Source of the DNA: Mycobacterium marseillense
GTDB lineage: Bacteria; Actinomycetota; Actinomycetes; Mycobacteriales; Mycobacteriaceae
DNA: 64,000 nt
Direction of reading: 5' to 3'
NCBI RefSeq assembly: GCF_010731675.1
Contig: NZ_AP022584.1
Coordinates: 5,270,001-5,334,000, forward strand
The notes under the pieces are model-generated. The model saw nothing but the letters and a program-made list of their open reading frames with translations. It made no database searches and was not told the origin of the DNA. Numbering within the stretch: the first letter of the stretch is position 1; every line of letters begins with the position of its first letter. Position numbers and translations under genes: made by a program. This document shows positions 35,263-64,000 of the stretch, piece by piece.

Positions 35263-35625
35263 ATGCCCGCAAAGCTTCGCGCGTCGGCGCTATTCGTTGC
35301 CACCCTGACAACCCTCGCCCTCGCGGCACCGGCCCGCGCCGACCTAGTTGACCCGATTCCCGGTAACGGTGTGTTCATCGTGGGGCCCGATATCGCGCCG
35401 GGCCTCTACCACACGGGCGGCTCGGGCTCGGCCTTCGGCGTGTGGATCAACAACGTGCCGACGCAGGACTCGATGTGTTCGTGGTTCACCTACAGCACGC
35501 CCGATGCGAACAAGGACCATGTGCTGCAGACGAATACCTCCATCGGCCCGATGTACGCGAACATCAATTCCGCGGTCAAGGCCTTCGAGTCGCAGAATTG
35601 CCAACCCTGGACGCGGGTCCCCTAG
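35263..35625 (+). CDS. Small secreted protein (Rv1352-like)
   Basis: A 120-residue exported protein with a Sec signal peptide (basic start MPAKLR, hydrophobic core, cut near APARA-DLV). The mature part holds GNGVFIVGPDIAPGLYHTGG and two Cys (SMCSWF, NCQPW) that could form a disulfide. From memory it resembles the small secreted protein at Rv1352 in H37Rv, which also follows fabG2; function unknown. The ATG at 35263 follows GGAGAGAACAAG. Its stop lies in a CTAG shared with the convergent ligase gene. Confidence 0.8.
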   Translation: MPAKLRASALFVATLTTLALAAPARADLVDPIPGNGVFIVGPDIAPGLYHTGGSGSAFGVWINNVPTQDSMCSWFTYSTPDANKDHVLQTNTSIGPMYANINSAVKAFESQNCQPWTRVP

Positions 35626-37151
35626 GGTTGGTTCGCGTCGCTTAACATCTCCCGCAGCAGGCGGATATCGACCTTTCCGGTGCCGCCGCGCGGAACGCCG
35701 TCGTCGGAGTCCAGCAGCAGCCACACCGTGGGTACCTTGAAGGCGCTCAGCACCTTTCGCGCCGACGCATGAAGCTGCTCGGCGGTGAGGGCGACGTCGC
35801 GCACCACCGCCGCGCCGACCCGTTCGCCCGTTGCGCCAGGCACGTTGGTGACAAACGCATGGGCGACGCCGTCGATGGCGCGCAGCGCTCGCTCGACCTC
35901 GCTGGGGTAGACGGTCGCACCGCTGACTTTGAACATGTCGTCGGATCGCCCGTGGTAGAACAGGAACCCCTGCTCGTCGAGGTGGCCGAGGTCACCGGTC
36001 GGATAGAAGCCGTCGGGGGTGAAGAGCTCTTCGCGCCGGCGGCCGCAGATGCCTCGCAGCGTGTGCGGCCCGCGGATCTGGATCATGCCGGCGGTTCCCG
36101 CCGTGGCGGGCGCACCGCTTTCGGGGTCGACGATGCGGACTTCCATGCCGTCGAACGGCTTTCCGCAGCTGCCCCACGCCGTGGCGGGCATGTCTGTGTC
36201 GGCGGGGTAGCCGCAGTAGGGCCCGAACGCCTCGGTCATGCCGAACAGCGTCGCGCGCGCCCCGGGCCGCGCGCGCTGCGCGGGCGGCAACAGGGCCTCC
36301 AGGCTGCCGGGCCGCAGCGCCGAGAGATCCACGCCGACCGAGTCGGCGTGCCGCGCCAGCGTTTCGGCCTGATCGGGCCAGCCACGAAACAGGGTGACCC
36401 GTTCGCGCTCCAGCAGTCGCAGCGTGGTTTCGGGCCGCGGGATTTCTTCGGTCACCAGGGTGGCACCGGCCAGCAGGACGGACAGGATTCCGCTGCCGAA
36501 CCCACCAACCCAGAAGAACGGCATCGGCAGATACAGGCGGGTTTCGGCGGTGATGCAGCGCGCCGCCAGCCCCGACCGCACGGCGCCCAGCGCGTTGCCG
36601 TGGGAGTGCACGACGCCCTTGGGGGAGCCGCTGCTGCCCGAGGTGAACATGATGACCAGCGGGTCGGCGGGGGCGACCGTCTCGGTCATCGCGTCGATGA
36701 TCCGCCGGGCCCGCTCGCTCGCTGCTGCGCTGTCGAGCCGATCGGTCGACCAAACATGTTGCAACGCCGGTAGTTCGGACTCGGGCGCCGCCTTGAGGTC
36801 CTCGAGATAACGGTGGCCGCGGAATTCCTCGACGCTCACCAGGAACTGGACGGCGGCGACCCGCAGCTGGGCGACGAGTTCGCCGGCCTGCAGCAGGGTG
36901 CTCAGCGGCACCAGGACGGCGCCGATGCGGGTCAGGGCGATCGCGATCTGGACCCACCGGGTGCCATTGGGCATGATCAACCCGACCCGGCTGCCCTTGC
37001 CGACGCCGGCCTCGGCGAACGCCGCGGCCAAATCCCGTGTGGTGATGTCGAGTTCGCGGTAGCTGATCCGCGCCGTGGGGTCGATCACCATCGGTGTGTC
37101 CGCGTCGTGCCGTGCGCGAAGCCTCACCAGCTGGTCGATGGTGCTAGGCAT
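35622..37151 (-). CDS. Acyl-CoA synthetase (adenylate-forming, FadD-like) 1
   Basis: Activates a carboxylic acid to its CoA thioester via acyl-AMP. The 509 residues carry the AMP motif MFTSGSSGSPKGVVHSHG (about residue 185), the A5 region LFGMTEAFGPY, the hinge YPTGDLGHLDEQGFLFYHGRSDD and the C-terminal Lys of GGTGKVDIRLL. It is the third and last of three overlapping ligase genes read on this strand; its ATG overlaps the stop of ligase 2 by eight bases. Three adjacent ligases suggest several carboxyl groups or chain-shortened acids are activated. Confidence 0.9.
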   Translation of the reverse strand: MPSTIDQLVRLRARHDADTPMVIDPTARISYRELDITTRDLAAAFAEAGVGKGSRVGLIMPNGTRWVQIAIALTRIGAVLVPLSTLLQAGELVAQLRVAAVQFLVSVEEFRGHRYLEDLKAAPESELPALQHVWSTDRLDSAAASERARRIIDAMTETVAPADPLVIMFTSGSSGSPKGVVHSHGNALGAVRSGLAARCITAETRLYLPMPFFWVGGFGSGILSVLLAGATLVTEEIPRPETTLRLLERERVTLFRGWPDQAETLARHADSVGVDLSALRPGSLEALLPPAQRARPGARATLFGMTEAFGPYCGYPADTDMPATAWGSCGKPFDGMEVRIVDPESGAPATAGTAGMIQIRGPHTLRGICGRRREELFTPDGFYPTGDLGHLDEQGFLFYHGRSDDMFKVSGATVYPSEVERALRAIDGVAHAFVTNVPGATGERVGAAVVRDVALTAEQLHASARKVLSAFKVPTVWLLLDSDDGVPRGGTGKVDIRLLREMLSDANQP

Positions 37152-38685
37152 CGAAGAGCTTTCTCAGTCGTTGCGTGTCGACCTTGCCGCTGGAGAGCAG
37201 CGGGAGGTCGGTGCGGGGGAGAGCGAGAAAGCGCTTGGGAATCTTGTACGACGACAGCTCCCGCTTGAGCCGTTCCCGCACGGCCGATTCGTCGAAGTCG
37301 GGTTGGACGACGACCGCGGCGACCAGTTCTCCGCGTTGGGTGTCGGGGATGCCCACCACGTAAGCCTCGGCGCCGGTGACCCTGGTGATGGCCTGCGCGA
37401 CCTCGGCCGCCGAGACGTTGGCGCCGGCCGTCTTGACCATCGCGCTGAGCCTGCCGACGAAGTAGACGAATCCGTCGGCGTCGATGCGCACCAAATCGCC
37501 GGTGTGGAACCAGCCGTCGGCGTCGAAGCATTCCTCGCGGGAGCGCTTGTAGTAGCCCTGCATCACGTACGGTCCCCGGATGCAGAGCTCACCGACCCCG
37601 GAGGCATCCGAGTCCACGATCATCGTCTCGAAACCGGGCGCGGGCTTGCCGAATGACCCGCGCCGCGTTTCGGGTTGGTCGGATTCGTCCTCGCCGATCA
37701 GGACGACGCTGCCGGCCTCGGTCATCCCGAGCATGTTGTGCCGCAGCTCCGGGTCAACCGGGCGGGCGTCGGGGGCCATGATCGGGTAGAGGTTGCCGCG
37801 CCGCATTGACGACAGATCACGCTCGGCGTAGCTGGGGTGGTCGGCCAGGTGAGCGATCCCGGCCGCGAACCCATTGGTCATGGTCGGCCTTTCGGCCTCC
37901 AACAGGTCGAGCGTGGCGCCGGCGTCCACGGCGTTGGAACAGACCAGGGTCGATCCGGCCACCAGGGTGGCCAGCAGGCCGAACGCGAACCCGCCGATCC
38001 AGAAGAATGGCGAATTGCAGAACAGCTTGTCCGACGCGGTCAGGCCGCGAATCGTGTTGAGGTTGCGCTGATGTCCGAGCAGTGCGGCATGCGTATGCAC
38101 CACCCCTTTGGGGGCACTCGTCGATCCTGACGTGTAGACGATCGCCAGCGGATCGCCTTCGTAGACAACGTCTTCCATCGCCCGCAGTCGCGCTGGGTCG
38201 ACGGTGCCGGCCAGCGCGCACACCGTCTCGTGCGCGAACGCCACTCGGCGCAGTTGCGGCACCGCGGCGCACAACAGGCGGTCGCCGGAATCGAAGTCGG
38301 CCTCCGAAAGAACCTCGGACAGTCGCTGCGCATAGTCGTGGGACCGAAAAGTCGCGGCGCTCAACAGTATTTCGACGTCGCTGTCGACGAGCTGCTCGCG
38401 CAATTCTCGGGCGGTGACGAAGGTGGAGAAGGGGACCACCACGGCCCCGATGCGCGCAGCCGCCAGCATGCCGACGGCGAAGGCGGGTCCGTTCGGATAA
38501 AGGAGTCCCACATGGGTTCCCTTACCGGCGCCGAGGGCCATCAGACCGCGGGCGAGCTCCGCCGACCGGCGGTCGGCTTCGGCGTATCCGATGCGGTCGC
38601 CGTCGCAGACCAGCAGCGGGTGATCCCCGCGCGCCCGGGCCTGGTGTCGCAACGTCGCGGCGACGGTCAGAGAATCAGCGCGCAT
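37144..38685 (-). CDS. Acyl-CoA synthetase (adenylate-forming, FadD-like) 2
   Basis: A 513-residue ligase with AMP motif IVYTSGSTSAPKGVVHTHA, A5 NMLGMTEAGSVV, hinge FHTGDLVRIDADGFVYFVGRLS and catalytic Lys in LSSGKVDTQRL. The sequence is clearly related to ligase 1 (both have the FFWIGGF/FFWVGGF region after the AMP motif), so the pair probably arose by duplication. The frame stays open 69 residues before the ATG at 38685, but those residues have a different composition and overlap ligase 3; the ATG overlaps the ligase 3 stop by 11 bases. Confidence 0.9.
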   Translation of the reverse strand: MRADSLTVAATLRHQARARGDHPLLVCDGDRIGYAEADRRSAELARGLMALGAGKGTHVGLLYPNGPAFAVGMLAAARIGAVVVPFSTFVTARELREQLVDSDVEILLSAATFRSHDYAQRLSEVLSEADFDSGDRLLCAAVPQLRRVAFAHETVCALAGTVDPARLRAMEDVVYEGDPLAIVYTSGSTSAPKGVVHTHAALLGHQRNLNTIRGLTASDKLFCNSPFFWIGGFAFGLLATLVAGSTLVCSNAVDAGATLDLLEAERPTMTNGFAAGIAHLADHPSYAERDLSSMRRGNLYPIMAPDARPVDPELRHNMLGMTEAGSVVLIGEDESDQPETRRGSFGKPAPGFETMIVDSDASGVGELCIRGPYVMQGYYKRSREECFDADGWFHTGDLVRIDADGFVYFVGRLSAMVKTAGANVSAAEVAQAITRVTGAEAYVVGIPDTQRGELVAAVVVQPDFDESAVRERLKRELSSYKIPKRFLALPRTDLPLLSSGKVDTQRLRKLFDA

Positions 38686-40144
38686 GGTGGCGCGGCGCGG
38701 CGGGCTCGCGGAAGTAGTCCCGGATCGCGCCGAGATCGGCTTTGCCCGACGGTGTGCGCGGTAATGCGTCGACAATCGCGATCTCGGTCGGAATCTCGTA
38801 ACGCGCCAAGCGCTCTCGCAGATGCTCCACCAGCGCGTCGGCGTCGGCGGCACCCGGTTCGCGCAGTTCGACCATCGCGACCGGTGTCTCACCCAGCCGC
38901 TCGTCGGGCCGGGCCAGCACCGCTGCGCCCGCCACCGCGGGGTTGCTCTCGAGCGCAGCGCGCACGTCGTCGGGCATCACCTTGAAGCCGCCGCGGATGA
39001 TCGCCTGGTCGGCGCGGCCGACGATCCAGAGGAATCCGTCGGCGTCGATGCGTGCCATGTCCGTGGTCCGCATCCAGTGCGCGGCCGGGCCCAGCTGACC
39101 GGGCTTGACCTCCAGCAGCCCGACTTCGTCTGGGCCCAAGGGTGTTCCGTCGTCGGCGACCACTCTGAGCTGAGCGCCCGGATTGGCGCGACCGACGCTG
39201 CCCCGCTTGGACCGCCAGTATTGCTGATGGTCGGGAAGGGTCCAGCCCGCCACGCCGCCCCCGAACTCGGTTGCGGCATAGGAGGTCAGCACCGGAATGC
39301 CGTACTTGGCGGTGAAGGCGTCGGCGTCGTCGGCCGACAGCGGCGCCGTGCCGCAGGTAACGGCCCGGACACTGTCCAGGTCGGCCGGCGGCAGATCGGA
39401 GTGCAAGACGGTGCGCAGGGCCGCCGGCACCAGCGACACGGCGCGCGGCCGGTGCTTGCGCACCACCTCGGCCCATGCGGTGAGCTCGAATCGCTCCAAC
39501 AGCACGAACGGCCTGGCCTCGGCGATGCATTGCAGCACGCGAAACACCCCGCCGATGTGCACCAGCGGCGAGTTCACGATGGCGACGCCGCGCCGCAGCT
39601 CGGTGGACGCCGGCGCGCGGCCGGGTTCGGCGCCCATCACACTGCGCGCCAACATGTCGTAGGTCAGGTCGATGCGCTTGGGCGGGCCCGTCGTGCCGCT
39701 GGTCAGCATGCGCACCGCGACACCGGTCGGCGTGCCCGGCTCGGTGCTGGGTTGCCGGGACACCTCGACGTCGTCGGCCGGTCCCGAGATCGCGACCGTC
39801 GGGGTGCCCTCCGTTACCAGCGCCGTCAGATCGGCGCGCTCGCCGACGATCAACCGAAGCCGCAGTTTCGCGATGTCGGCCTTGGTGCGTTCGTCGCCGC
39901 GTGACGGGTTGATGACCACGACGGTTCCGCCGCCCAGCAGCACGCCCAGAAAGGCCGCCACGTGCGCAGGCCTGTTGCGCAGCAGCATCCCGACTTCGCC
40001 GCCGGCGGTCAGACCGGCGATGCGCTGCGCCAAGGTGCCGACCTGGTCCCACGAGATCCATTGGCCGCCATACTCGATGGCGTGTGAGTCGGGCTCGAGG
40101 CCGAGCACACTCGAGATGCGTTGGATGAGCGGGTGACGCGGCAT
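38675..40144 (-). CDS. Acyl-CoA synthetase (adenylate-forming, FadD-like) 3
   Basis: A 489-residue ligase, the shortest of the three, less like the other two. AMP motif RMLTSGTTGPPKRIDLTYD, A5 TSYAATEFGGGVAGW, hinge MRTTDMARIDADGFLWIVGRADQ and C-terminal Lys in TPSGKADLGAIRDYF are all present. It lacks the FFWxGGF segment of its neighbours, so a different acid is likely. The ATG at 40144 overlaps the stop of the crotonase gene before it (TGATG on this strand). Position in the operon: between the crotonases and ligases 2 and 1. Confidence 0.9.
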   Translation of the reverse strand: MPRHPLIQRISSVLGLEPDSHAIEYGGQWISWDQVGTLAQRIAGLTAGGEVGMLLRNRPAHVAAFLGVLLGGGTVVVINPSRGDERTKADIAKLRLRLIVGERADLTALVTEGTPTVAISGPADDVEVSRQPSTEPGTPTGVAVRMLTSGTTGPPKRIDLTYDMLARSVMGAEPGRAPASTELRRGVAIVNSPLVHIGGVFRVLQCIAEARPFVLLERFELTAWAEVVRKHRPRAVSLVPAALRTVLHSDLPPADLDSVRAVTCGTAPLSADDADAFTAKYGIPVLTSYAATEFGGGVAGWTLPDHQQYWRSKRGSVGRANPGAQLRVVADDGTPLGPDEVGLLEVKPGQLGPAAHWMRTTDMARIDADGFLWIVGRADQAIIRGGFKVMPDDVRAALESNPAVAGAAVLARPDERLGETPVAMVELREPGAADADALVEHLRERLARYEIPTEIAIVDALPRTPSGKADLGAIRDYFREPAAPRHHAR

Positions 40145-40935
40145 CAGCGGATCTTCGGCGTGCGCTTGGCCGACTTCTGCGCGGCCAGTTCCGCGGTGCC
40201 CAGCGGGTTTCCCAGCCGGGTATAGATGAGGCCCTGCTCCATCGCGGCGCGATACGGCTTGTCCAGCGACTCCCAAATCGCTTTCACCGTGCCCTGAGTC
40301 GCGGTCGGCGGCTTGGCGGCGATGGTCGCCGCGATTTCGTGGGCACGGTCCCAGAGCTGACCGGTAGGAACGACCTCGGAGACCAACCCGATGCGCAGCG
40401 CGGTGTCGGCGCTGACCCGCTCATCGTTGCCCATCAGCGCGATTCGCAGCGTCTCGCCCAGGCCGACGCGGCGCATCAGTCCGATCGGCTCCAGCGCGCA
40501 GACCAGACCGGCCGACACGTGGGAGTCGAAGAACGTGGCGTCTTGCGAGCAGATCACCACGTCGGACTCGTTGAGGAAGTAGAACGCGCCGGCGGTGCAC
40601 ATGCCCTGGACCGCGCAGACCACCGGCTTCCACATCTTCTGCCATTTGGGGCTCAGCGCTTCGCCGGGATCTTCGTGGTTCCAGACGTTTTCGGGCTGCC
40701 CGTAGGGCGTCTTGATGTCCAGTCCCGCGCTGAACGCCCGGTCGCCGGCGGCACGCAGCACGACCGCGTGCACCGACTCGTCGAGTTTGACCGTGTGCCA
40801 GGCGTGGGCCATCTCTTCACACATGGTGCGGTTGAACGCGTTCAGCTGCTCAGGCCGGTTCAGCGTGATGGTGGCGACGTGGTCGGTGGCGTCGACCTCG
40901 AGCAGGATGGTTTCGAAACTCCTCGGCTGGTTCAC
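40144..40935 (-). CDS. Enoyl-CoA hydratase/isomerase family protein (crotonase) 1
   Basis: A crotonase-fold protein of about 263 residues acting on an enoyl-CoA. Oxyanion-hole regions are RAFSAGLDIKTPYGQ and QGMCTAGAFYFLNESDVVICSQDATF. The usual second hydratase Glu region reads SAGLVCALEPIGLMRRVG, not the classic GTIPGAGG, so the reaction may be other than simple hydration. The start is not certain: GTG 40935 makes a GTGA overlap with the upstream gene's stop, while GTG 40941 and TTG 40947 are also in frame. Confidence 0.85.
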   Translation of the reverse strand: MNQPRSFETILLEVDATDHVATITLNRPEQLNAFNRTMCEEMAHAWHTVKLDESVHAVVLRAAGDRAFSAGLDIKTPYGQPENVWNHEDPGEALSPKWQKMWKPVVCAVQGMCTAGAFYFLNESDVVICSQDATFFDSHVSAGLVCALEPIGLMRRVGLGETLRIALMGNDERVSADTALRIGLVSEVVPTGQLWDRAHEIAATIAAKPPTATQGTVKAIWESLDKPYRAAMEQGLIYTRLGNPLGTAELAAQKSAKRTPKIR

Positions 40936-41744
40936 CGGCACTGCCAATTCGGTTGGCGTTTCTCGACGAAGGCCCTGGGCCCTTCGGCGGCGTCCTCGGT
41001 CCGCAGCACCCGCTCGCGGAAGGTTTCGGCGAGTATCTCCGCCTCGTGCAGCGGCACGTTCAGGCCCTTGAGGATGGCCAGCCGGGTGCCCCGGACGGCC
41101 AGCGGCGCATTGGAATTGACGATGTCGGCGATCTCGTGGGCCCTATCCAGCAGGTGATCGTGCTCGACGACCTCGCTGATCAGTCCGAGCTCGTAGGCGC
41201 GCTCCGCGCTCATCCGCTCGTGCTTGCCCATCAAGGCCATCCGCAGGGCGATCGAGCGGGGCAGCACGCGGGACACCCGCACCAGCTCGCGCCCGGCCAC
41301 CAGCCCGATGCTGACGTGCGGATCGAAGAAGGTCGCCTGCTCGGAGGCGATCACGATGTCGGTCGTAGTGACCCAGTCCATCCCGGCGCCACAGCAGATC
41401 CCGTTCACCGCGGTCAGCACCGGCTTGGCCATGGTGCGAAACGGCGGCGTGCCCTCCTGCGGCGCCTCCCACTGGTCGTACGTCGACAGGTAGGGCCGCT
41501 CGTAGATCACCTTGCCGTCTTCGGGGATCTCCTTGACGTCGGCGCCGGTGCAGAACGCGCGGCCGGTGCCCGTGACGATGGTCAGCCAGACGTTGTCGTC
41601 GTTTTCGGCCTCGTCGTAGGCGGCCCGCAGCTCGGTGATCATGTGCGGGCTGAGCGCATTGAGGGCGTCCGCGCGGTTCAGGGTGATCGTGGCGGTGTGC
41701 CCGTCGACCTCGTACTTGATCGTGTCGAATGAATCAGTGGGCAT
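40932..41744 (-). CDS. Enoyl-CoA hydratase/isomerase family protein (crotonase) 2
   Basis: A 270-residue crotonase: RAFCTGADVKEIPED and NGICCGAGMDWVTTTDIVIASEQATFFDPHVSIGLVAGRE (landmark parts) make the CoA site and oxyanion hole. It is a close relative of crotonase 1 (shared SQ/SEQATFFD and LMGxxERxSA segments), so the pair is probably a duplication with divided function. A long segment VIYERPYLSTYDQWEAPQEG after the first motif is an insertion of this subfamily. Ends in a GTGA overlap with crotonase 1. Confidence 0.87.
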   Translation of the reverse strand: MPTDSFDTIKYEVDGHTATITLNRADALNALSPHMITELRAAYDEAENDDNVWLTIVTGTGRAFCTGADVKEIPEDGKVIYERPYLSTYDQWEAPQEGTPPFRTMAKPVLTAVNGICCGAGMDWVTTTDIVIASEQATFFDPHVSIGLVAGRELVRVSRVLPRSIALRMALMGKHERMSAERAYELGLISEVVEHDHLLDRAHEIADIVNSNAPLAVRGTRLAILKGLNVPLHEAEILAETFRERVLRTEDAAEGPRAFVEKRQPNWQCR

Positions 41745-41841: not shown

Positions 41842-42663
41842 CTAGCGTCCACGAAAGTCCGGGTCCCGCCGCTGCCGGAAGGCCTCCAGGCCCTCCTTGA
41901 AATCTCCTGTCCGGCAAGATAATTCCAGATTAAACAGCTCCTGGTTCAGCGACTGGCTCAGCGTGGCATGCTGCCCGAAATTCAGGGCCTGCTTGGCCAG
42001 CCCGATTGCGGCCGTCGGGCCGGAGGCCAACCGGCCGACCAGCTCCTCGGCGGCGCGGTCGAGATCGGGGCCGCTCACCGCCTGGTGGATAAGCCCCCAA
42101 TCGGCCGCGTCGTGCCCACTGACCTTCTCGCCGAGCAGTAGCATCCGCCGGGCCCGTGCCAGGCCGACGAGGCGGGGTAGCAGCCAGGTGGACCCCGAGT
42201 CCGGGCTGAATCCGCGGTCGAGGAACGGTTCCCAGAACACCGCATCGCCGGCGGCCACGGTGAAGTCCGCGGCCAAGGCGAGGTTGCAACCGAATCCCAC
42301 GGCCCATCCCCGCACGCTGCACACCACCGGCAGTTGGATGCCGGCGACGAGTTCGATCACGCGGTGGGCGGCATGGGGCACCCGGCGCACCAGATCACCG
42401 GTGCGGGGACGTTGGCCGCCGGGGTCGTTGGCGGCCACCCAATCGGAGCCGGCGCAGAAATCGTCTCCGGCGCCGCGGATGTGCACGGCGCGCAGCGAGT
42501 CGTCGGATGCGGCAGCGGTCAGCGACTCGATCAGAGCCCCGATCATCAACTGCGTCAACGAGTTACGCCGCGACGGGCGATCGAGCGTGACCAGTAACAC
42601 CGCACCGTCTCGGTGCACTGTCACCGAACCCTCGGCTCCGGCCGCGCCGGCCCCTTGACTCAC
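41842..42663 (-). CDS. Enoyl-CoA hydratase/isomerase family protein (crotonase) 3
   Basis: A 273-residue crotonase with DDFCAGSDWVAANDPG and VRGWAVGFGCNLALAADFTVAAGDAVFWEPFLDRGFSPDSG (landmark parts). The catalytic Glu positions of classical hydratase are replaced (GFSPDSGSTWLLPRLVG), a pattern seen in many mycobacterial EchA proteins. The N-terminus MSQGAGAAGAEG is low-complexity. First gene of the minus-strand run crotonase 3 - 2 - 1 - ligase 3 - 2 - 1, and divergent from the thioesterase gene across a promoter region with TACAGTA dyads. Confidence 0.86.
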   Translation of the reverse strand: MSQGAGAAGAEGSVTVHRDGAVLLVTLDRPSRRNSLTQLMIGALIESLTAAASDDSLRAVHIRGAGDDFCAGSDWVAANDPGGQRPRTGDLVRRVPHAAHRVIELVAGIQLPVVCSVRGWAVGFGCNLALAADFTVAAGDAVFWEPFLDRGFSPDSGSTWLLPRLVGLARARRMLLLGEKVSGHDAADWGLIHQAVSGPDLDRAAEELVGRLASGPTAAIGLAKQALNFGQHATLSQSLNQELFNLELSCRTGDFKEGLEAFRQRRDPDFRGR

Positions 42664-42685: not shown

Positions 42686-42731
42686 CGATACGGTTACCCA
42701 TACAGTAGGCAATACGATTGATACGCTGTAT
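42686..42731. promoter_or_regulatory. Divergent promoter region with TACAGTA dyad
   Basis: Between crotonase 3 and the thioesterase gene. CGATA (42686) and ATACAGTAGG (42700-42709) repeat elements found at 45324 and 47771. ATACAG (42700-42705) and CTGTAT (42726-42731) form an inverted repeat with a 20-base spacer. The region is AT-rich for this genome. Either an operator or back-to-back -10 elements; the recurrence in four places favours a regulator site. Confidence 0.5.
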
Positions 42732-42783: not shown

Positions 42784-42830
42784 ATGGCCCGCGCCGACGA
42801 CGATGCAGAGCGCCAGCGATGAGGAGCGGC
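42784..42830 (+). repeat. Single MIRU-like element with 12-codon ORF
   Basis: From ATG 42784 a 12-codon ORF (MARADDDAERQR) ends in TGA 42820-42822, overlapping the ATG of the thioesterase gene (42819) as ATGA. The DNA segments GACGATGCAGAGCG and AGCGATGAGGAG are those of the mycobacterial interspersed repetitive unit, the same as in the minus-strand units at 57071-57229. GAAAGAGAG before the ATG could serve as its ribosome site. Confidence 0.7.
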
Positions 42831-52356: not shown

Positions 52357-52358
52357 GT

Positions 52359-55865: not shown

Positions 55866-55921
55866 GAGCAGACGCAGAATCGCGCAGTCGAGACTCGAAT
55901 CGTGCGATTCTGCGTCTGCTC
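55866..55921. repeat. Long stem-loop with GAGCAGAC core, copy 2
   Basis: GAGCAGACGCAGAATCGC (55866-55883) is perfectly inverted at 55904-55921, with a loop holding the small palindrome TCGAGACTCGA. The same core as at 30797-30852, differing at two positions. It sits between the thiolase stop and the amidohydrolase start on the minus strand. A termination, attenuation or RNA-processing role is inferred from structure only. Confidence 0.75.
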
Positions 55922-55924
55922 GCG

Positions 55925-57070
55925 CTAGGTGGTGAGGATGGTGGCCGCGGCGGTGCCCGGCGCGCCGTAGAGCTGAGCGAACCCGACGCGCGGGGCACCG
56001 GCAACCTGACGATCACCCGCTTCGCCGCGCAGCTGGCGCACCAGCTCGTGGATTTGCCGCAGGCCCGACGCCCCGATCGGTTCGCCGTTGGCGATCAGCC
56101 CGCCGTCGGTGTTGATCGGCATCGAGCCGGTGATCTCGGTGGCACCGTCGGCCAACAGCTTCTCCTGCTCGCCGTCGGCGCAGAACCCGCATTCGGCCAT
56201 GTGGATGATCTCGGCGCCGGCGTCGGTGTCCTGCAGCTGGATGACGTCGACGTCTTCCGGTGCCACTCCGGCCTTTTCGAACGCGGACTTGGCGGCATAC
56301 ACGGTCGGCGCCACGTCCTCGTCGACGGGGGCAAAGGTGGTGTTCACCTCGTAGGCGCCGTAGCGACGGGTGCGCACCTCGACCGCGCGCAGGAAGATCG
56401 GTTTGGCGGCATAGCGGTGCGCAATATCGGCACGGCACATGACCACGGCGGCGGCGCCCTCGTCGGGCGCACAGAACATGTACTGGGTGAGTGGGTAGTT
56501 CAGCATCGTCGAGTTGAGGATCTCGTCTTCGGGAATCGGCTTGCGGCGAAACGCATTCGGGTTCTGCGCGCCGTTACGGAAGTTCTTGGCGGCCACCTTG
56601 GCCAGCGTTTGCTGGGAGATGCCGTGCTCGTGCAGGTAACGGTTGGCCTTCATGCCGAAGAATTGCGTGGTGAGGTACTGCCCGTTCTCGGCGTACCAGC
56701 GCGGCATCCCCACCAGCGCCGGGTCTTCGGTGAACGCGCCGCGCGGATGCTTGTCCAGACCGATGGCGATCCCGATGTCGTAGTCGCCCAGCCGGATTCC
56801 GTCCGCGCAGGCCTTGGCGGCGCTGGCCGCGGTCGCGCAGGCGTTGAACACGTTGGTGAAGGGGATGCCCGACAGCCCGACCATGCCGACGATCGCATCG
56901 GGATTGGCGACCGTCCAGCTGCCTCCAGTGGCGGCCTGGATGTCCTTCCACTGCACGCCCGCATCGTCGACCGCGAGCCGGATGGCGTCGACGCCCATTT
57001 CCATCGCGGACTTGCCCTCGAAGCGGCCGAAGGGGTGCAGGCCCACGCCGATGATCGCGACGTCATTCAT
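55925..57070 (-). CDS. Lipid-transfer-protein-type thiolase (Ltp/SCP-x-like)
   Basis: A 381-residue thiolase-superfamily protein of the group that includes Ltp2, a retro-aldolase of the steroid side chain. The Cys is in FNACATAASAAKACADG near residue 80. The HPxG loop of real thiolases is here NGEPIGASGLRQIHEL, with Glu in place of the first His and a later His. Ltp2-type enzymes act with a DUF35 protein; none is encoded in this window. ATG 57070 follows GAGGAGGAG supplied by the last MIRU unit and overlaps its mini-ORF stop (ATGA). Confidence 0.85.
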   Translation of the reverse strand: MNDVAIIGVGLHPFGRFEGKSAMEMGVDAIRLAVDDAGVQWKDIQAATGGSWTVANPDAIVGMVGLSGIPFTNVFNACATAASAAKACADGIRLGDYDIGIAIGLDKHPRGAFTEDPALVGMPRWYAENGQYLTTQFFGMKANRYLHEHGISQQTLAKVAAKNFRNGAQNPNAFRRKPIPEDEILNSTMLNYPLTQYMFCAPDEGAAAVVMCRADIAHRYAAKPIFLRAVEVRTRRYGAYEVNTTFAPVDEDVAPTVYAAKSAFEKAGVAPEDVDVIQLQDTDAGAEIIHMAECGFCADGEQEKLLADGATEITGSMPINTDGGLIANGEPIGASGLRQIHELVRQLRGEAGDRQVAGAPRVGFAQLYGAPGTAAATILTT

Positions 57071-57229
57071 GCGCACCACTCCTCCTCATCGCTTCGCTCT
57101 GCATCGTCGCCGGTGCGATTCATGCGCACCACTCCTCCTCATCGCTTCGCTCTGCATCGTCGCCGGTGCGATTCATGCGCACCACTCCTTCTCATCGCTT
57201 CGCTCTGCATCGTCGCCGGTGCGATTCAT
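57067..57229 (-). repeat. Three tandem 53-bp MIRU units with chained mini-ORFs
   Basis: Units at 57071-57123, 57124-57176 and 57177-57229 are identical except one base in the third. On the minus strand each begins ATGA, contains GACGATGCAGAGCG and GATGAGGAGG, and encodes [18 protein letters not shown] or the form with E for K; each TGA overlaps the next ATG. The first mini-ORF ATG overlaps the stop of the CoA-transferase, the last TGA overlaps the ATG of the thiolase. This is the defining layout of mycobacterial interspersed repetitive units. Confidence 0.92.
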
Positions 57230-58452
57230 GCGATAGCCCCTGCCTCTTTGAGTTCGGCGATGCGGTCCCAGTCCATCCCGAGTTCCATCAGGACGATTTC
57301 GGTGTGCTCGGAGGCCTGCGGGGCCCGGGTGGTGACGAGCGGCTCGTGGTTGAACTGCACCGGCCCGCGCACGACCTTGAACGGTGCGCCGCCGTCGTTG
57401 GCCTCGACTTCGACGATCATGTCGTTGGCGATGGCTTGCTCGTCATCGGCCAGATCGATGAGGCTCTGGAACGGCGCCCACTGGCCCTTCATCGTTTTGA
57501 GGTGCTGTCGCCAGTAGTCGAAGGGCTTGCCGGCGAAGGCCTTTGCGATCAGCTCGGCGGCCGCATCGGCGTTCTGGATCAACGGCAACACGTCGGAGAA
57601 GCGGGGATCGTCGGCGGCCTCGGGGATGCCGAGGTGCTCGAACGTGTCGCGAATGTAGCCCGTCGGACTGACGATGCACAGGTTGATCGTGCCGCCGTCG
57701 GAGGTTTCGTAGTTGCCCAGAAACGGGTTCACCGATGCGGCGGCGGATCCTGGCATCGGTGTGCGCATGACCTCGCCGGTCTCCATGCCTTGCGTGACGC
57801 TCGCGCCCGCCGCCCACCACGCCGTGCTCAGCAACGACACGTCCAGCTCGAGTGCCTCGCCGGTGCGTTCGCGGTGCAGCAGCGCGGCCGAGATGCCGCC
57901 GGCGATGAACATGCCGCCGATGGAGTCCCCGAAGGCGGGAATGCCTTGTCCCAGAGCGCCGCCCAACTCCTCGGGGGTCAGCGCGTACCCCACCCCGCTG
58001 CGCGTCCAGAACGCTGTTCCGTCGTAGCCGCCGACGTTCCGCTCGCCTCCCTTGTCGCCGTAGGCGCTGCCGCGGGCATACACGATGTTCGGGTTCACGG
58101 CGCGGATGTGCTCGACGTCGAACTTGTTCTTCTGCCGCTGCGCGGGCATGTAGTTGGTCAGGAACACGTCGGCGGTCTTGGCCAACTCGTAGATCACTTC
58201 CTGGCCGCCCGGCGTGGAGACGTCGATTCCGACGCTGCGCTTGCCACGATTGGGATGCTCGATCAGCGGATGCCGGTCGGGATCGAGTTGGAAGCCGCCC
58301 ATGTTGACGAAGCCGCGCTGGGTGTCGCCGCGTGCCGGGTGCTCGACCTTGATGACGTCGGCGCCCCAGTCGGCGAGGATCGCACCGGCGGCGGGGACGA
58401 ACGTGAACTGCGCAACCTCGAGGACCCGAAAGCCCTGCATTACCTTCACCAT
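57226..58452 (-). CDS. Family III CoA-transferase (CaiB/BaiF)
   Basis: A 408-residue family III CoA-transferase: [35 protein letters not shown] at the N-terminus (landmark parts), catalytic Asp in [17 protein letters not shown] near residue 167, and [13 protein letters not shown] in the substrate domain. It moves CoA to a pathway acid without ATP. It is distinct from the one at 32088 (about the same fold, few shared segments). ATG 58452; the frame is open 28 residues before it. Its TGA opens the MIRU chain leading to the thiolase. The P450 gene lies 10 bp upstream. Confidence 0.9.
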
Positions 58453-58462
58453 TCCCGGGACC

Positions 58463-59671
58463 CTACTTCGCGTCGAACGTAACCGGAAGCGCCGTCGGCG
58501 AACGGAACGGCTGACCGTGGATATGCGGATCGTCATCGGCGAGCAGGTTGAGGTCGGTCACCCGATCCAACAGGCATTCGAGCGCGACCCGGGTCTCCAT
58601 GCGCGCGAGGTGCAGCCCCAAGCAGGTGTGCTCGCCGGCGGCGAACGAGATGTGCGGCATGTGCGCCCGGAAGATGTCGAACTCTTCCGAGCGCTCCCAG
58701 CGGTTTGCATCGCGATTCGCCGAGCCGATGCACACGTCGACCACCGACCGCGCCGGGATCTTGATCCCCTCCAATTCGGTGTCTTCGGCGGTGAACCGCT
58801 GCACCGTGGTCAACGGCGTCTCGAATCGCAGTCCCTCCTCGATCGCCGGGGCGATCAACGTGGTGTCGGTCTGCACCGCGGCGAGCTGTTCGGGGTGGGT
58901 GAGCAACAGGAACAACAGATTGCCCGAGGATCGGTAGGTGGTTTCGAGCCCGGCGGGCAGCAACAGCCGCAAAAACGAGTAGATGGCTTCGTCGCTGAGC
59001 TTTTCGCCGTCGATCTCCGCGGTGACCAGGTCGCCGATGATGTCCTCGGTCGGCTTGGCCTTGCGCGCTTCGATCTGCTCGAGGAAGTAGTCCTTCAACG
59101 CCGCCGAGGCTTCAAAGGCCCGTTCGTACTTGACGGCGTAGCTGATCAACTCCACCGCGCGCCGGTGGAACATGGGCACGTCTTCGTCGGGCAGACCCAG
59201 TAACGCGGCGATGACCCGGGTCGGAAACTCGAACGTGAACTGGCGGACCAGATCGGCCCGACCGTCGGCGATGAACTCGTCGATGAGGGCGTTGCAGATC
59301 GGCCGCACGACCGTGGGCTCCCAGCGGGCCAGCGCCTTGGACTTGAACGCCGCCGACACCAGGTTGCGATGGTCGCGGTGCTTTTTGCCCTCCATCGCCA
59401 GAATCGTCGGCCCCATGAACAGGCCGATGGTGGTGTCGTACATCGCCGAGCTGAACACCCGGCCGTCGCGAAACACCTTGTTCACCGCGTCGAAGGACAC
59501 CGCCGCGAAGGACCGCTTGGGCCGCAGCGACTCCGGGGTCTTGGAGTAGTCCATGACCGTGCCGTGAAAAACCCCACCCTCGGTGCGCTTTTGCGCGAAG
59601 TACGGGTACGGGTCACGCAGGTAGTCGCCCGGCTTAGCGCCGGTGACGGCATCCTGAAGCTGACTTTCCAC
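58463..59671 (-). CDS. Cytochrome P450 A
   Basis: A 402-residue soluble bacterial P450. The heme loop is [17 protein letters not shown] with the Cys near residue 355; the I-helix segment is [12 protein letters not shown] (oxygen-activating AGxET) and the ExxR pair is in EEGLRFETP. The GTG at 59671 follows GGAGAG by eight bases; a GTG at 59695 is in frame and closer to the operator. It leads the minus-strand operon with the CoA-transferase, thiolase and amidohydrolase 3, so hydroxylation and CoA-ester breakdown are linked. No ferredoxin gene is near. Confidence 0.92.
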
Positions 59672-59700
59672 GGCTGCTCTCCGGCTCGGGTACACGGTCG

Positions 59701-59719
59701 TACTGTAAAGATTACAGTA
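59701..59719. promoter_or_regulatory. Perfect palindrome TACTGTAA-AGA-TTACAGTA between P450 A and ALDH
   Basis: TACTGTAAAGATTACAGTA is an exact 8-bp inverted repeat with a three-base spacer, in the 89-bp divergent space between P450 A (minus) and the aldehyde dehydrogenase (plus). One arm, extended by a base, is CTACTGTAA, identical to the site between the TetR and SDR genes. Strong candidate for a dimeric repressor site controlling both directions. Confidence 0.7.
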
Positions 59720-59760
59720 GACTATATCGACGCGCCTACGGTGCCGTAAGCTGTGCAGCC

Positions 59761-61257
59761 ATGGGTTCAGTTGGCCAACAGGTTGACAGTCCGGCGGGGC
59801 AACAGCGGGCCGATTTGCAGGCGATGCTGGACCGGCAGCGGCGATCCTTTGTGGCCGAGGGGCCGCCCACGGCCGCGGTCCGGCGCAACCGCATCGATCG
59901 GCTGATGGCGCTGCTGCTGGACAACAGCGACGCGTTCATCGACGCCATGGCCGCCGACTACGGGACCCGGTCCAAGGCGGCCTCGTTGTTTACCGAGATC
60001 ATCGGGATCACCTCGGTGGTCGAGCACACCAGATCCCATGTGGCGCAATGGATGCGCCCGGCCAAACTGATGCCCGCCGCGCGGCTGTGTGGCCTGCGGG
60101 CCGAAGTCCATCCCACCCCGCTCGGTGTCGTCGGCGTGATCGGTCCGTGGAACTTCCCGGTCAATCTTGTGGTGCTGCCGGCGTCGGCGGCGTTCGCGGC
60201 CGGCAACCGGGTGATGATCAAGATGTCGGAGATCACTGCCCACACCGCGGATCTGATGGCGGCGACTGCGCGCAGGTACTTCGACCCGACCGAGCTCGAC
60301 GTCGTGACCGGCGGCGCCGACGTCGCGGCCGAGTTCGCGGCGTTGCCGTTCGATCACCTGTTTTTCACCGGGTCGCCGTCGGTGGGCGCGCTGGTGCAAC
60401 GCGCGGCTGCCCAGAACCTCGTTCCGGTGACGCTGGAACTCGGCGGCAAGAACCCGGTGGTCGTTGCGCCGGGCGCCGACATCGCGCGGTCGGCGGCGCG
60501 CATCGCCCGGGCGCGGATGGTCAACGGCGGACAGGTCTGTGTCTGCCCCGACTACGTCATGGTGCCCGACGCCGACCTCGACACCTTCGTCGACACCGCC
60601 CGCGAGACCCTGCGCGGCATGTTCCCGACGGTCATCGCCAATCCCGACTACTGCTCCAGCGTCAACCAGGCCAATTTCGACCGGGTGGTGGGCCTGATTG
60701 ATGACGCGCGCGGGCACGGCGCCCGGGTGGAAACCATTGCCCCGGAAGGCGAGTCGCTACCCGACCGCGCCAGCCGCAAGATCGCGCCCACCCTAGTCCG
60801 CGACCTCGACGACCGGATGCGGATCGCCGACGAAGAGGTCTTCGGCCCCGTGCTGGCCGTCGTGGGCTACTCACGTCTGAATGAGGCGATCGACTACATC
60901 AACGGGCGCCCCGCGCCCCTGGTGGCGTACTGGTACGGTCCCGACGACGACGATTTCCGCACCTTTGTCCGCAACACCCGCAGCGGCGGCGTCGCCCGCA
61001 ACGATTTTGCGGCGCAGATGATCCCGTCCGCTGCGCCGTTCGGGGGAGTGGGCCGCAGCGGGATGGGCGCCTATCACGGCAAGGCCGGGTTCGACACGTT
61101 CAGTCACTACCGCACCGTGGTCGGCAACGACCTGCCGTTCAGCATCACCGGGACCGCGGCGCCACCGTTCGGCAGTTCGTTGCGGTTCTACGCCAACGCG
61201 GCCCTGCGGATCGCGCGGGCCCGCACGCACCGCCGGCTCAAGGAGGCTACGAAATGA
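59761..61257 (+). CDS. Aldehyde dehydrogenase (coniferyl-aldehyde/fatty-aldehyde type)
   Basis: A 498-residue NAD(P) aldehyde dehydrogenase with the catalytic Glu in VTLELGGKNPVVV (near residue 225) and Cys in NGGQVCVCPDYVMV (near 260). Landmarks GPWNFPVNLVVLP and EEVFGPVLAVVGY place it with class 3 and coniferyl-aldehyde dehydrogenases acting on hydrophobic aldehydes. The C-terminal extension (SSLRFYANAALRIARARTHRRLKEATK, landmark parts) is basic and hydrophobic and may contact membrane. Its stop overlaps P450 B (ATGA): P450 gives an aldehyde and this enzyme the acid for CoA activation. Confidence 0.92.
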   Translation: MGSVGQQVDSPAGQQRADLQAMLDRQRRSFVAEGPPTAAVRRNRIDRLMALLLDNSDAFIDAMAADYGTRSKAASLFTEIIGITSVVEHTRSHVAQWMRPAKLMPAARLCGLRAEVHPTPLGVVGVIGPWNFPVNLVVLPASAAFAAGNRVMIKMSEITAHTADLMAATARRYFDPTELDVVTGGADVAAEFAALPFDHLFFTGSPSVGALVQRAAAQNLVPVTLELGGKNPVVVAPGADIARSAARIARARMVNGGQVCVCPDYVMVPDADLDTFVDTARETLRGMFPTVIANPDYCSSVNQANFDRVVGLIDDARGHGARVETIAPEGESLPDRASRKIAPTLVRDLDDRMRIADEEVFGPVLAVVGYSRLNEAIDYINGRPAPLVAYWYGPDDDDFRTFVRNTRSGGVARNDFAAQMIPSAAPFGGVGRSGMGAYHGKAGFDTFSHYRTVVGNDLPFSITGTAAPPFGSSLRFYANAALRIARARTHRRLKEATK

Positions 61258-62459
61258 CCGTCGCCGAACTGGAATTCGACCCGTTCTCGGAGGACTTCTT
61301 CAACGGGCCGTACGAGACCTATCGCCGGATGCGTGAGGAGGCCCCAGTCTACTACAGCGAACGGTACGACTTCTACGCGCTGAGCCGCCACGTGGATGTC
61401 GCCGCGGCGTACAAGAACTTCGAGACGTACTCGTCGGCGCGCGGCGTGGACCTCGCGGCGGTGCGCTCCGAGGAACCGATGGGGCACAAGTCGATCATCA
61501 TGATGGACCCGCCCGAGCATCGGCACATGCGCGGTCTGGTCAACAAGGTGTTCACCCCGCGCGCGATCGAAGCGATGCGCCCGCTGGTGACCGGCCTGAT
61601 CGATCGCTATCTCGGCGCCACCGATCCCGCGGGATTCGATGTCGTTCAGGATTTCTCGGCGCTGTTTCCGGTCGAAGTCATCACGACCATGCTCGGGGTG
61701 CCGGAAGAGGATCGCCAACAGATCCGGCTGTGGCTCGACGAATTCCTGCACCGCGAGCCCGGCGAGGTCGAGATGTCGGAGGCCGGTTTCCAGGCCGCCA
61801 CGCAAATGGCGATCGCCTACTACCAGCTGGTGAAGGAGCGCAGGGCCGCTCCGCGCGAGGACATGATCAGCGCGTTGGTGGCGGCGCGGGTGGAACGCGA
61901 GAACGGCGAGCTGACCGCGTTGGACAACATCGAAATCGCGCAGTTCGCCGTGCTGTTGGGCGGTGCCGGCGCCGAGACGGTGACCAAGCTGGTGGCCAAC
62001 GCGGTGGTGTTGTTTGCGCGCCATCCCCAGCAATGGCAGAAGTTGCTCGACGACCGCAGCAGGGTACCCGCCGCGGTCGAAGAGGTGCTGCGCTACGAAT
62101 CCCCGAACCAATACAATGTGCGCTGTTCGCGCGAAGACGTCACCCTGCACGGCGTCACCATCCCGGCCGGCAAGCCGGTGTTTTTGCTACTGGGCTCGGC
62201 CAACCGTGATCCCGACGCGTGGACGAAGCCGGAGGTCTTCGACATCGACCGCGACCGCGCCGAGGCGCAGAACCTCGGGTTCGGCTACGGGATCCACAGC
62301 TGCCTCGGCGCGGCGCTGGCACGGATGGAAAGCTCTGTGGCACTGCAGAAGTTGCTCGACTACATGCCACGCTATGAGGTGGACTGGGCGGGCTGTAGCC
62401 GCGTCAACATGCAGAACGTCGCGGGGTGGAATAACGTCCCGGTGCGGGTGCTGCCGTAA
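61254..62459 (+). CDS. Cytochrome P450 B
   Basis: A 401-residue P450: heme loop LGFGYGIHSCLGAALARME with the Cys near residue 350, I-helix VLLGGAGAETVTKLVAN (with Glu-Thr as in oxygen-activating P450s) and ExxR in EEVLRYESP. Only modestly like P450 A. ATGA overlap with the aldehyde dehydrogenase shows one transcript. It is convergent with the SDR gene, whose stop directly adjoins its own stop. No ferredoxin or reductase is encoded nearby, so electrons must come from general partners. Confidence 0.92.
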   Translation: MTVAELEFDPFSEDFFNGPYETYRRMREEAPVYYSERYDFYALSRHVDVAAAYKNFETYSSARGVDLAAVRSEEPMGHKSIIMMDPPEHRHMRGLVNKVFTPRAIEAMRPLVTGLIDRYLGATDPAGFDVVQDFSALFPVEVITTMLGVPEEDRQQIRLWLDEFLHREPGEVEMSEAGFQAATQMAIAYYQLVKERRAAPREDMISALVAARVERENGELTALDNIEIAQFAVLLGGAGAETVTKLVANAVVLFARHPQQWQKLLDDRSRVPAAVEEVLRYESPNQYNVRCSREDVTLHGVTIPAGKPVFLLLGSANRDPDAWTKPEVFDIDRDRAEAQNLGFGYGIHSCLGAALARMESSVALQKLLDYMPRYEVDWAGCSRVNMQNVAGWNNVPVRVLP

Positions 62460-63302
62460 TCAGGCGCCGGCGCGCCCCGAGCGGGAGTTCGTCACCCGTG
62501 CGGCGTAGGCCTGCAGAGCGGTGTAGTGCGCGCCCAGCAGCCGGGGCATCGCCGCCATCGCACGCCCGTCGGGGCCGATGAGGATTCTGGCCCGGTTTTT
62601 CTCGGCCCCTCGGAGAATGAGGCGAGCGGCCTTCTCGGGTGAGGTGAGCGCCGCGCGTGCGAAGAGCTTCGCCGCCATGTCGGGATCCTCGGTGGCGGCG
62701 GCGCGCATATTGGTCCCGAAGTTGGTTCGGACGACACCCGGATGCACGCAGTGCACCGTCACCGGATGGCGTTCGATGATCATTTCCTGGCGAAGCGCCT
62801 CGGTGAATCCGCGCACCGCGAACTTCGCCGTGCTGTAGGCGCCCTGGTAGGGCACCGCGATCAGCCCGAAGGCGCTGGACAGGTTGACCAACCGGGCGGG
62901 GCGTTGCGAAGAGCCGGACTGGATGAGTTGGGGCAGAAACGCCTTGGTCCCGTTGACGACGCCGCCCACGTTGATCCCGATGAGCCAGTCGAAGTCGGCC
63001 CACGACATGTCCGCAACGCTCGCGAACAGGTCAACTCCGGCATTGTTGAACACCATCGAAGCGGGGCCGAGCTGCCGGTGCACGTCATCGGCGAAGCCCA
63101 GCACCGCGTCCCGGTCCGCCACATCAACCCGGTACGGCGTGACCAGGCCGGGCGGGCACGCTGCTTGCGTGCCGGTGAGGCCCTTGTCGTCGATGTCGGC
63201 GGCCGCGACGTGCGCCCCGTCCTGGGTGAGCGCCTGGGTCAGCGCGCGGCCGATGCCCGAGCCGGCACCCGTGACGACAGCAATACGCCCTTGATGATTC
63301 AT
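62460..63302 (-). CDS. Short-chain dehydrogenase/reductase
   Basis: A 280-residue SDR: TGAGSGIGRALTQAL (cofactor loop) with ADIDDKG suggesting NAD, NNAGVDLFASV, catalytic Ser in VNLSSAFGLIAV, and YSTAKFAVRG. The tail after residue 240 (RILIGPDGRAMAAMPRLLGAHYTAL) matches the large group of mycobacterial SDRs often found with lipid genes. Its ATG overlaps the stop of the SRPBCC gene (TCATG on the top strand), so these two are coupled and probably join the partial ligase in one minus-strand operon. Confidence 0.87.
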   Translation of the reverse strand: MNHQGRIAVVTGAGSGIGRALTQALTQDGAHVAAADIDDKGLTGTQAACPPGLVTPYRVDVADRDAVLGFADDVHRQLGPASMVFNNAGVDLFASVADMSWADFDWLIGINVGGVVNGTKAFLPQLIQSGSSQRPARLVNLSSAFGLIAVPYQGAYSTAKFAVRGFTEALRQEMIIERHPVTVHCVHPGVVRTNFGTNMRAAATEDPDMAAKLFARAALTSPEKAARLILRGAEKNRARILIGPDGRAMAAMPRLLGAHYTALQAYAARVTNSRSGRAGA

Positions 63303-63772
63303 GAATTCCCTGCCTCCACTATCGAGCGAATCCGGGCCACCGAAAGATCGAGGTTCTTTTGCAGGTCCTGGCGCCGATCCCGGACGAACAAGAACAGGTG
63401 CTCGAAAACCAGCACGCCGAAAGGCAGTTCAACGCACATCCGGAACTCTTCGGTGAGACGCGCTGTGCCGGGGGCGGAACCGGGTTCGATGAGATATGTC
63501 CACTGGGTCCAATCCCCACCCATGGCCTGAACGACGAAGGAGAAGCTGCGCCCGGGTGTGGCATCGACGACGTTCGCCACGGTCCGCCACCGACCCAGCC
63601 GCCGACGGTTCCAGGCCTGAAAACGATTCGGCGCCAGCCACTGTGCGCGTGTGGTTTCCGGGCTCCATTCCGGGATGCGGGTGACGTCGGAGACGACGGC
63701 GTAGATGCGGTCCGCAGTGGCTCGCACCTCCGTCGATGCCGTCAGCGTCTCGTCCTTGCGAAGCAACGACAT
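63299..63772 (-). CDS. SRPBCC (polyketide cyclase/START-like) protein
   Basis: A 157-residue protein with the helix-grip fold of the SRPBCC family: TASTEVRATADRIYAVVSDVTRIPEWSPETTRAQW at the N-terminus and ATPGRSFSFVVQAMGGDWTQWTYLIEP in the middle (landmark parts). Such proteins bind hydrophobic ligands; no catalytic residues can be named. It sits between the partial ligase gene (31 bp away) and the SDR gene (ATGA-type overlap) and may shuttle or shield a lipid intermediate. Confidence 0.85.
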   Translation of the reverse strand: MSLLRKDETLTASTEVRATADRIYAVVSDVTRIPEWSPETTRAQWLAPNRFQAWNRRRLGRWRTVANVVDATPGRSFSFVVQAMGGDWTQWTYLIEPGSAPGTARLTEEFRMCVELPFGVLVFEHLFLFVRDRRQDLQKNLDLSVARIRSIVEAGNS

Positions 63773-63803
63773 CAGTTACGCCTTCCCGCACCGGGCTACC
63801 TGG

Positions 63804-64000
63804 TCAGCCGTTCACCGCTTGATCGCGTGCCCACCGGTAGTCGGCCTTACCCGAGGGGCTGCGCTCGATGACCGGGCGAAAGACGATCGCCTTGGGGAGT
63901 TTGTAGCGCGCCAGCGACTGCGCCGCGTGGGTCACCAATTCGTCGACCTCGACGCTGGCGCCCTCGGCAAGCGCGACCACGGCGACGACCTCCTGGCCCC
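63804..64000 (-). CDS. Acyl-CoA synthetase, C-terminal end (runs off the window)
   Basis: Only the last 65 codons are inside. The translation GQEVVAVVALAEGASVEVDEL, then ARYKLPKAIVFRPVIERSPSGKADYRWARDQAVNG (landmark parts), is the mobile C-terminal domain of an adenylate-forming ligase with the catalytic Lys in SPSGKADYRWAR. The ending is close to that of the FadD19-like ligase at 49895. It reads toward the SRPBCC and SDR genes, and so heads or continues their operon. Confidence 0.88.
   Translation of the reverse strand, partial: GQEVVAVVALAEGASVEVDELVTHAAQSLARYKLPKAIVFRPVIERSPSGKADYRWARDQAVNG

Follow-up and report, generated by a model that had tools for sequence, protein, structure and literature searches.

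What does Mycobacterium marseillense do with a long run of coenzyme A (CoA)-linked enzyme genes, and do the operons in that run belong together? The genes lie at 35622-64000 of the window, by which we mean the whole 64,000-nucleotide stretch analysed (positions 5270001-5334000 of a 5.49-Mb chromosome); five-digit coordinates below refer to the window and seven-digit coordinates to the chromosome. An original prediction had proposed a CoA-dependent catabolic island under local regulators, distinct from the standard cholesterol cluster and probably acting on a cyclic or branched hydrophobic substrate. On balance, we read the island as the main part of one TetR-controlled Mycobacterium catabolic regulon acting on a hydrophobic compound that is bulky, cyclic and probably terpenoid-like. 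The regulon part of this reading is well supported, the chemistry is deduced from gene families, and the substrate class is its weakest part.

The operons share a DNA signal. Short conserved blocks stand out amid poorly conserved intergenic DNA between the genes for TetR (44412-45215, −; PF00440) and the short-chain dehydrogenase SDR1 (45405-46202, +; PF13561), between those for the crotonase Ech3 and a thioesterase, and before the crotonase gene Ech5 (66, 67 and 56 sequences, respectively), and TACTGTA is common to all three. A 19-bp palindrome, TACTGTAAnnnTTACAGTA, is found at the TetR/SDR, crotonase/thioesterase and cytochrome P450/aldehyde dehydrogenase (ALDH) promoters; by default it was searched for with up to three mismatches, and the reversed pattern served as control. 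Four operators are predicted in the window: O1 (42689-42707; TACGGTTACCCATACAGTA, three mismatches) in the divergent Ech3/thioesterase promoter, O2 (45325-45343; TACTGTAATACCTATCGTA, three mismatches) in the divergent TetR/SDR1 promoter, where its footprint is conserved in the 66-sequence alignment, O3 (47770-47785, −) upstream of the Ech5 core operon, and O4 (59701-59719; TACTGTAAAGATTACAGTA), a perfect palindrome in the divergent P450a/ALDH promoter. O3 is a variant with shorter spacing, TACTGTATACCTATCG, and the pattern TACTGTA-N(0,2)-ACCTATCG occurs at just two places in the whole genome, the Ech5 site and the TetR/SDR1 site. With two further operators just beyond the window (5337818 and 5344153), one palindromic signal marks six promoter regions of the island. 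An inverted repeat at 45251-45274 was considered as an operator and dropped, being unconserved in the intergenic alignment.

Genome-wide, the palindrome has eight sites against two for the reversed pattern, and five of the eight fall within 31.5 kb (5312689-5344171). Two others (3999571 and 4652269, three mismatches each) have no explanation, a number that the reversed control also yields. A one-mismatch site lies 25 bases upstream of a lone crotonase gene (1957975-1958814, −), which is a likely distant member of the regulon. Within the window, three sites were observed, where 100 shuffles gave 0.00 on average.

The same signal recurs in other species. Stretches of 40 kb from 10 relatives hold 35 sites against one for the control, and these sit near the starts of the genes for TetR (10 of 10), P450a (6), the Ltp-like thiolase (5), Ech3 or the thioesterase (5) and the CaiB CoA-transferase (4). 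When 873 kb from 19 genomes was taken (the window genome, those 10 and eight more), there were 87 sites against one, with 37 site-gene pairings falling on genes that carry no label. In a sample of 118 Mycobacterium genomes (TetR at E up to 1e-40, site with at most one mismatch), the repressor was found in 92 and the site in 73; the site is present in 72 of the 92 TetR-positive genomes and in one of the 26 forming the complement (Fisher 2.5e-12, the kinship of the genomes being ignored), and the reversed pattern in one of the 118. More than one TetR match occurs in 23 of these genomes, in several cases close to the P450a site, so that the task may be divided between two paralogs in such genomes; the window genome has one such TetR, its other matches being distant (24-26%). 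We are therefore highly confident, on these sequence patterns, that the island operons form one TetR regulon, of about 35 genes. Local regulators had been predicted; a single regulator gene, that of TetR, is recognised inside the stretch, and the operons are one regulon rather than mere neighbours. So widespread a repressor over a regulon with no assigned substrate marks a sizeable gap in what is charted of the metabolism of Mycobacterium, and the 19-bp operator makes the regulon testable, since a reporter could find its inducer.

Could the operons nonetheless be unrelated and adjacent by chance? The variability of the block at 54595-63772, which differs among species, would fit such an account. 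A search for the same gene order elsewhere had been suggested, and order is in fact kept in most of 80 Mycobacterium loci (retained from 173 aldolase relatives, all titled Mycobacterium or Mycolicibacterium). With orthologs taken at 55% identity or more over at least 70% of length, and loci left out of the count where their DNA stops short of the gene, the core genes are present in 69-76 of 73-77 loci; by gene, the figures are TetR (76/76), Ech5 (76/77), AH1 (72/77), FadD_D (72/77), AH2 (71/75), the small (70/74) and large (69/73) acyl-CoA dehydrogenase (ACAD) subunits, Ech4 (68/73), Ech3 (67/73), Ech2 (67/73), Ech1 (66/73), the thioesterase (66/73), FadD_C (64/72), SDR1 (63/78) and FadD_B (58/72). 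AH3 stands beside the core in just 1 of 73 loci, with orthologs (83-90%) a few kilobases off in other species. Because gene order is conserved and the operons have a common operator, which relatives also carry at P450a, CaiB and Ltp, the island is more than a chance grouping, and an assembly of unrelated operons is very improbable.

Judged by its aldolase, the system appears confined to one genus. Among 396 genomes of the phylum, spanning 236 genera, the aldolase (E up to 1e-30) turned up in 8, every one from a single genus; among 201 genomes of the family, 11 have it at 80% identity or above, every one a Mycobacterium, the rest of the family giving only weak matches of about 23-32%. By this enzyme the nearest named relatives are the strain Mycobacterium sp. 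WUMAC-067 (97%) and, at the level of named species, M. colombiense (94%), which fits an organism that is probably M. avium complex-like. Upstream of the island, 9 of 10 relatives keep ACAD and GntR genes (33315-35187) as neighbours and 4 of 10 a CoA-transferase gene (31881); no operator was found at the genes of 31881-35187.

Gene content very probably makes the regulon catabolic and CoA-based, as predicted. Pfam and NCBIfam profile scans of 35622-64000 recovered the enzymes that had been claimed, the fifth CoA ligase in part; gene starts are our choice and approximate. Five CoA ligases had been counted, and four are whole: FadD_A (35622-37151, −; PF00501, 223 bits), of which 7 of 10 relatives have an ortholog (63-82%) while two further matches (36-37%) land on FadD_B, FadD_B itself (37144-38688, −, start approximate; 231 bits), FadD_C (38675-40144, −; 156 bits) and FadD_D (49895-51529, +). 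Of the fifth, FadD_E, only the 3' end lies in the window (63804-64000, −), the gene running on to L010:1453 in the DNA beyond. FadD_D (664 bits against a cut-off of 543) and FadD_E both pass the cut-off of the PRK07798 subfamily. The ACAD pair consists of a small subunit (52350-53405, +, with ATG at 52350 or 52359) and a large one (53405-54598, +; profile scans). Further on are the Ltp-like thiolase (55925-57079, −; PF22691/PF00108), the class III (CaiB) CoA-transferase (57226-58464, −; PF02515), P450a (58463-59695, −; PF00067), ALDH (59761-61257, +; PF00171) and P450b (61254-62459, +; PF00067). The original prediction did not name the hotdog/PaaI-like thioesterase (42819-43499, +; 226 amino acids, judged by eye and without a Pfam match, its true start perhaps downstream), SDR1, a second short-chain dehydrogenase, SDR2 (62460-63302, −; PF00106), or an SRPBCC/polyketide-cyclase-like protein (63299-63772, −; PF10604), all of which lie in the same blocks. 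Also unnamed was an 82-amino-acid gene between the aldolase and Ech5 genes (47327-47575, −), whose CsbD match (28.5 bits) is below the cut-off of 40. Three open reading frames (ORFs) were dropped as being in the wrong frame and without a Pfam match: 38889-40061 (390 amino acids), where the third ligase occupies the frame 38675-40144, 46412-47833, and the first part of 50473-52356.

Three proteins had been predicted as amidohydrolase_2 members, and the family matches stand, but by their ligands two of them look like dinuclear oxygenases. AH1 (48670-49872, +) has all the metal ligands of the amidohydrolase-related dinuclear oxygenases (AROs) such as PtmU3 and AibH2, D12, H14, H229, E292, D355 and H358, and they are kept in 82 of 82 filter-passing orthologs (90 loci given). 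AH3 (54595-55845, −; profile scan and motif) has the same six (Asp-x-His, His, Glu, Asp-x-x-His) in four of four orthologs, and across 30 AH1/AH3 sequences the six are invariant. An extra acidic residue, E360 in AH1 (82/82) and E358 in AH3, aligns with E313 of PtmU3; such a residue (Glu313 in PtmU3, Asp342 in AibH2) is present only in binuclear members (PMC7782822). AH2 (51526-52356, +; Pfam and residue check) lacks the ligands, with NVH for DxH, Asn for the barrel His and GSDWPVL without DxxHx[DE]. A small Rieske ferredoxin gene, which is a discovery criterion for AROs though not a universal one, was not found among the scanned proteins, the small ORFs being partly scanned. Because all ARO metal ligands are present and PtmU3 appears to be the closest characterised fold by structural match, AH1 and AH3 are probably acyl-CoA hydroxylases; that they are dinuclear oxygenases we consider somewhat likelier than not. 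AH1 is the ortholog of MAP2389c (850 bits; Foldseek, 89% identity to PDB 4dzi), so if it is an oxygenase that structure has been misnamed since 2012, and the annotation of a large mycobacterial protein family would have to be revised. The AH1/AH3-type motif occurs in 11 of the 26 annotated "amidohydrolases" of this genome. Elsewhere on the chromosome (about 104000-167000), a second region rich in PF04909 proteins (five matches) and crotonases (at least five) resembles a sister island; three of its five PF04909 proteins have the motif, and no site of the island operator was found in it.

The crotonases and the aldolase also depart from their textbook versions. Five crotonases had been listed and all five have ECH_1 (PF00378) matches, but none retains both hydratase glutamates: by alignment, Ech1 (40144-40947, −) has Tyr/His and Ech2 (40932-41744, −) Asp/His at these positions, Ech4 (43490-44392, +) keeps one of the two, and in Ech5 (47830-48654, +; above the PRK06210 cut-off) both are absent. 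For Ech3 (41842-42663, −), the nearest NCBIfam model is PaaG, below cut-off. The distant lone crotonase does not retain both either, while two comparison crotonases of the same genome do. Since the two glutamates are never kept together in the island, the sequences suggest isomerase, lyase or retro-Claisen roles. The predicted hydratase-aldolase (46248-47264, +; PF00701) is a class I aldolase of the DHDPS superfamily, and DHDPS and N-acetylneuraminate lyase are among the fold matches of its model (mean pLDDT 77). Lys180, which we take by motif to be the catalytic Schiff-base lysine, has a Lys at the same position in 90 of 90 sequences; three of these 90 tblastn matches hold a stop, two at the extreme C-terminus.

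An aromatic pathway of phthalate or polycyclic aromatic hydrocarbon type, in which PF04909 decarboxylases would work with a hydratase-aldolase, agrees with these families at the superfamily level, and the hydratase-aldolase PhdJ does appear weakly among the aldolase matches. It ranks 26th of 54 by sequence (27.2 bits), however, behind 25 others that are mostly DHDPS, and is not among the 50 listed fold matches of the aldolase model. Neither is a ring-cleavage dioxygenase found among the scanned proteins, and AH1 and AH3 show DxH...H...E...DxxHxE rather than the ACMSD pattern; we rate an aromatic pathway as unlikely, more so than any other metabolic account considered here.

The regulon does not end where the window does. 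An extent of 35622-64000 had been given and the genes are there, but the two outer operators carry the system about 10-12 kb further (transcript membership of genes past the window is taken from direction and spacing). To one side of these operators are genes for a Rieske oxygenase with a KshA_C domain, isochorismatase-like and 4HBT proteins, and FadD_E; to the other are genes for a SnoaL-like protein, an FMO-type flavoprotein, an alpha/beta hydrolase (weak match) and an F420 LLM oxidoreductase (TIGR03857, above cut-off), and farther on come an acyl-CoA carboxyltransferase subunit, a P450 and an SDR. The sole NCBIfam match of the flavoprotein is PtlE, at 265.5 bits against a cut-off of 1100. 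The type I Baeyer-Villiger monooxygenase (BVMO) fingerprint is FxGxxxHxxxW[P/D], and in this BVMO-like protein (L010:4323-5945, +) the corresponding sequence, FAGTSLFTSRWP, has Phe in place of His. Many of the downstream genes are similarly ordered in other species; these also have genes for a molybdopterin oxidoreductase and a thiolase that are missing here. The former lies between CaiB and Ltp in one relative (L041:1418-3616, −), and several others have unlabelled genes of 727-904 amino acids at that point, frequently next to operators; the latter, a classical thiolase, adjoins Ech4 in another (L042:2658-3833, −), and several others have genes of 391-394 amino acids there. A further Amidohydro_2 protein (L041:6012-7316, +) adjoins a second CaiB-like gene in the regulon stretch of the first of these relatives.

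The resemblance of the ARO-like and BVMO-like proteins to the natural-product enzymes PtmU3 and PtlE, the first of which is itself biosynthetic, raises the question of whether the cluster makes or tailors a terpenoid or lipid instead of degrading one. No terpene cyclase, polyketide synthase or nonribosomal peptide synthetase was found among the scanned proteins (a 3082-amino-acid ORF at 5381561, about 37 kb past the last operator, lies outside the scan), and the many ligases, crotonases and ACADs, together with a thiolase and a CoA-transferase, speak for breakdown. A biosynthetic role is accordingly improbable, if slightly less so than an aromatic pathway.

The main rival is a steroid side pathway, that is, an accessory sterol or bile-acid module that degrades the side chain or offers alternative ring degradation under its own TetR and feeds the central cholesterol pathway. 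The KshA_C domain and the Ltp-like thiolase would fit it, and the IpdE2, FadD3 and CasG models are among the NCBIfam scores; yet the steroid-named equivalogs FadD3, CasG, EchA19 and IpdE2 all score far under their cut-offs (IpdE2, the best score of the small ACAD subunit, reaches 96 bits against 450). An HsaA ortholog above cut-off is found only at 4366589-4367734, about 0.94 Mb from the island, which bears out the claim that this is not the standard cholesterol cluster. The gene for an Rv0767c-type TetR presumably lies beside the Rv0768 ortholog (4470884), and as this ortholog is near none of the eight operator sites we rejected the Rv0767c-type motif as the island operator on grounds of position. 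In favour of a steroid module, excerpts of PMC6593523 report that phytosterol induces mycobacterial genes with a TetR-type motif other than those of KstR and KstR2. Taken together, we find such a module rather unlikely, though clearly the strongest of the alternatives.

For the preferred catabolic regulon, the following scheme can be proposed. TetR would repress its divergent promoters until a pathway intermediate binds it, perhaps an acyl-CoA by analogy with KstR and KstR2. The P450s, the KshA-like Rieske oxygenase and the Baeyer-Villiger-like flavoprotein would oxygenate the rings, ALDH would yield a carboxylate, and the five ligases would form CoA esters. In the manner of PtmU3, AH1 and AH3 may then introduce hydroxyl groups at unactivated carbons of acyl-CoAs, and the alcohols would be oxidised by the SDRs. 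Isomerising and opening the skeleton, and breaking it by thiolytic or aldol cleavage, would be the work of the ACAD pair, the Ltp thiolase, the class I aldolase and the non-canonical crotonases, with CaiB and the thioesterase recycling CoA. As for the substrate, the predicted cyclic hydrophobic compound is plausible from the enzymes; a polycyclic terpenoid-like one is our tentative choice, put at slightly under even chances. More speculatively, and with the balance against it, mycobacteria may practise an oxygenase-assisted beta-oxidation under this genus-specific TetR, in which amidohydrolase-fold dinuclear enzymes hydroxylate terpenoid-derived acyl-CoAs where ring fusion or branching blocks dehydrogenation and hydration, after which the skeleton is broken by an SDR together with a pyruvate-type aldolase; a large share of the annotated "amidohydrolases" of such genomes, like the 11 here, would then be oxygenases.

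How does this compare with known systems? The regulon is seemingly undescribed, as predicted, the nearest report in the excerpts of PMC6593523 being the different phytosterol-induced TetR motif. Open-licence PubMed Central papers gave no description of the motif, the gene set, the tags MSMEG_2247-2252 or six MAP tags between MAP2385c and MAP2391c as such a system; in the portions of the literature covered, the six MAP tags appear just in a Fur list and a mutant study. The same papers yielded nothing useful on the P450 names, nor anything on the enzyme DitZ (Rhodococcus rhodochrous, PDB 8uyr) or its pathway.

The KstR and KstR2 cholesterol regulons consist, like the island, of palindrome-bearing operons of FadD, FadE, EchA, Ltp and P450 genes. 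We take the island palindrome to differ from their motifs, and, unlike them, the island is without hsaA, which is elsewhere in the genome, and has PF04909 and DHDPS-family enzymes. Both regulators are TetR-type, and the effector of KstR2 is HIP-CoA, according to excerpts of PMC6593523, whose mycobacterial TetR motifs come, as far as those excerpts go, from PMC4482099. Motif X of the Rv0767c-type TetR in the same excerpts likewise marks a mycobacterial TetR-palindrome regulon, induced by phytosterol and including P450s and dehydrogenases, but it differs in the position of the Rv0768 ortholog given above. MAP2389c, the AH1 ortholog, was solved as an amidohydrolase from a structural-genomics target list (PDB 4dzi) under a title without function, and is entered as "Amidohydrolase" in the portion of the Fur study available (PMC7192006). 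The AROs PtmU3, AibH2 and SfbO (PMC10811679, PMC10401708, PMC7782822) are 19-24% identical to AH1 and AH3, the putative oxygenases of the island, which stand in a catabolic setting and have no recognised Rieske ferredoxin partner, yet the six metal ligands and the extra acidic residue are common to both.

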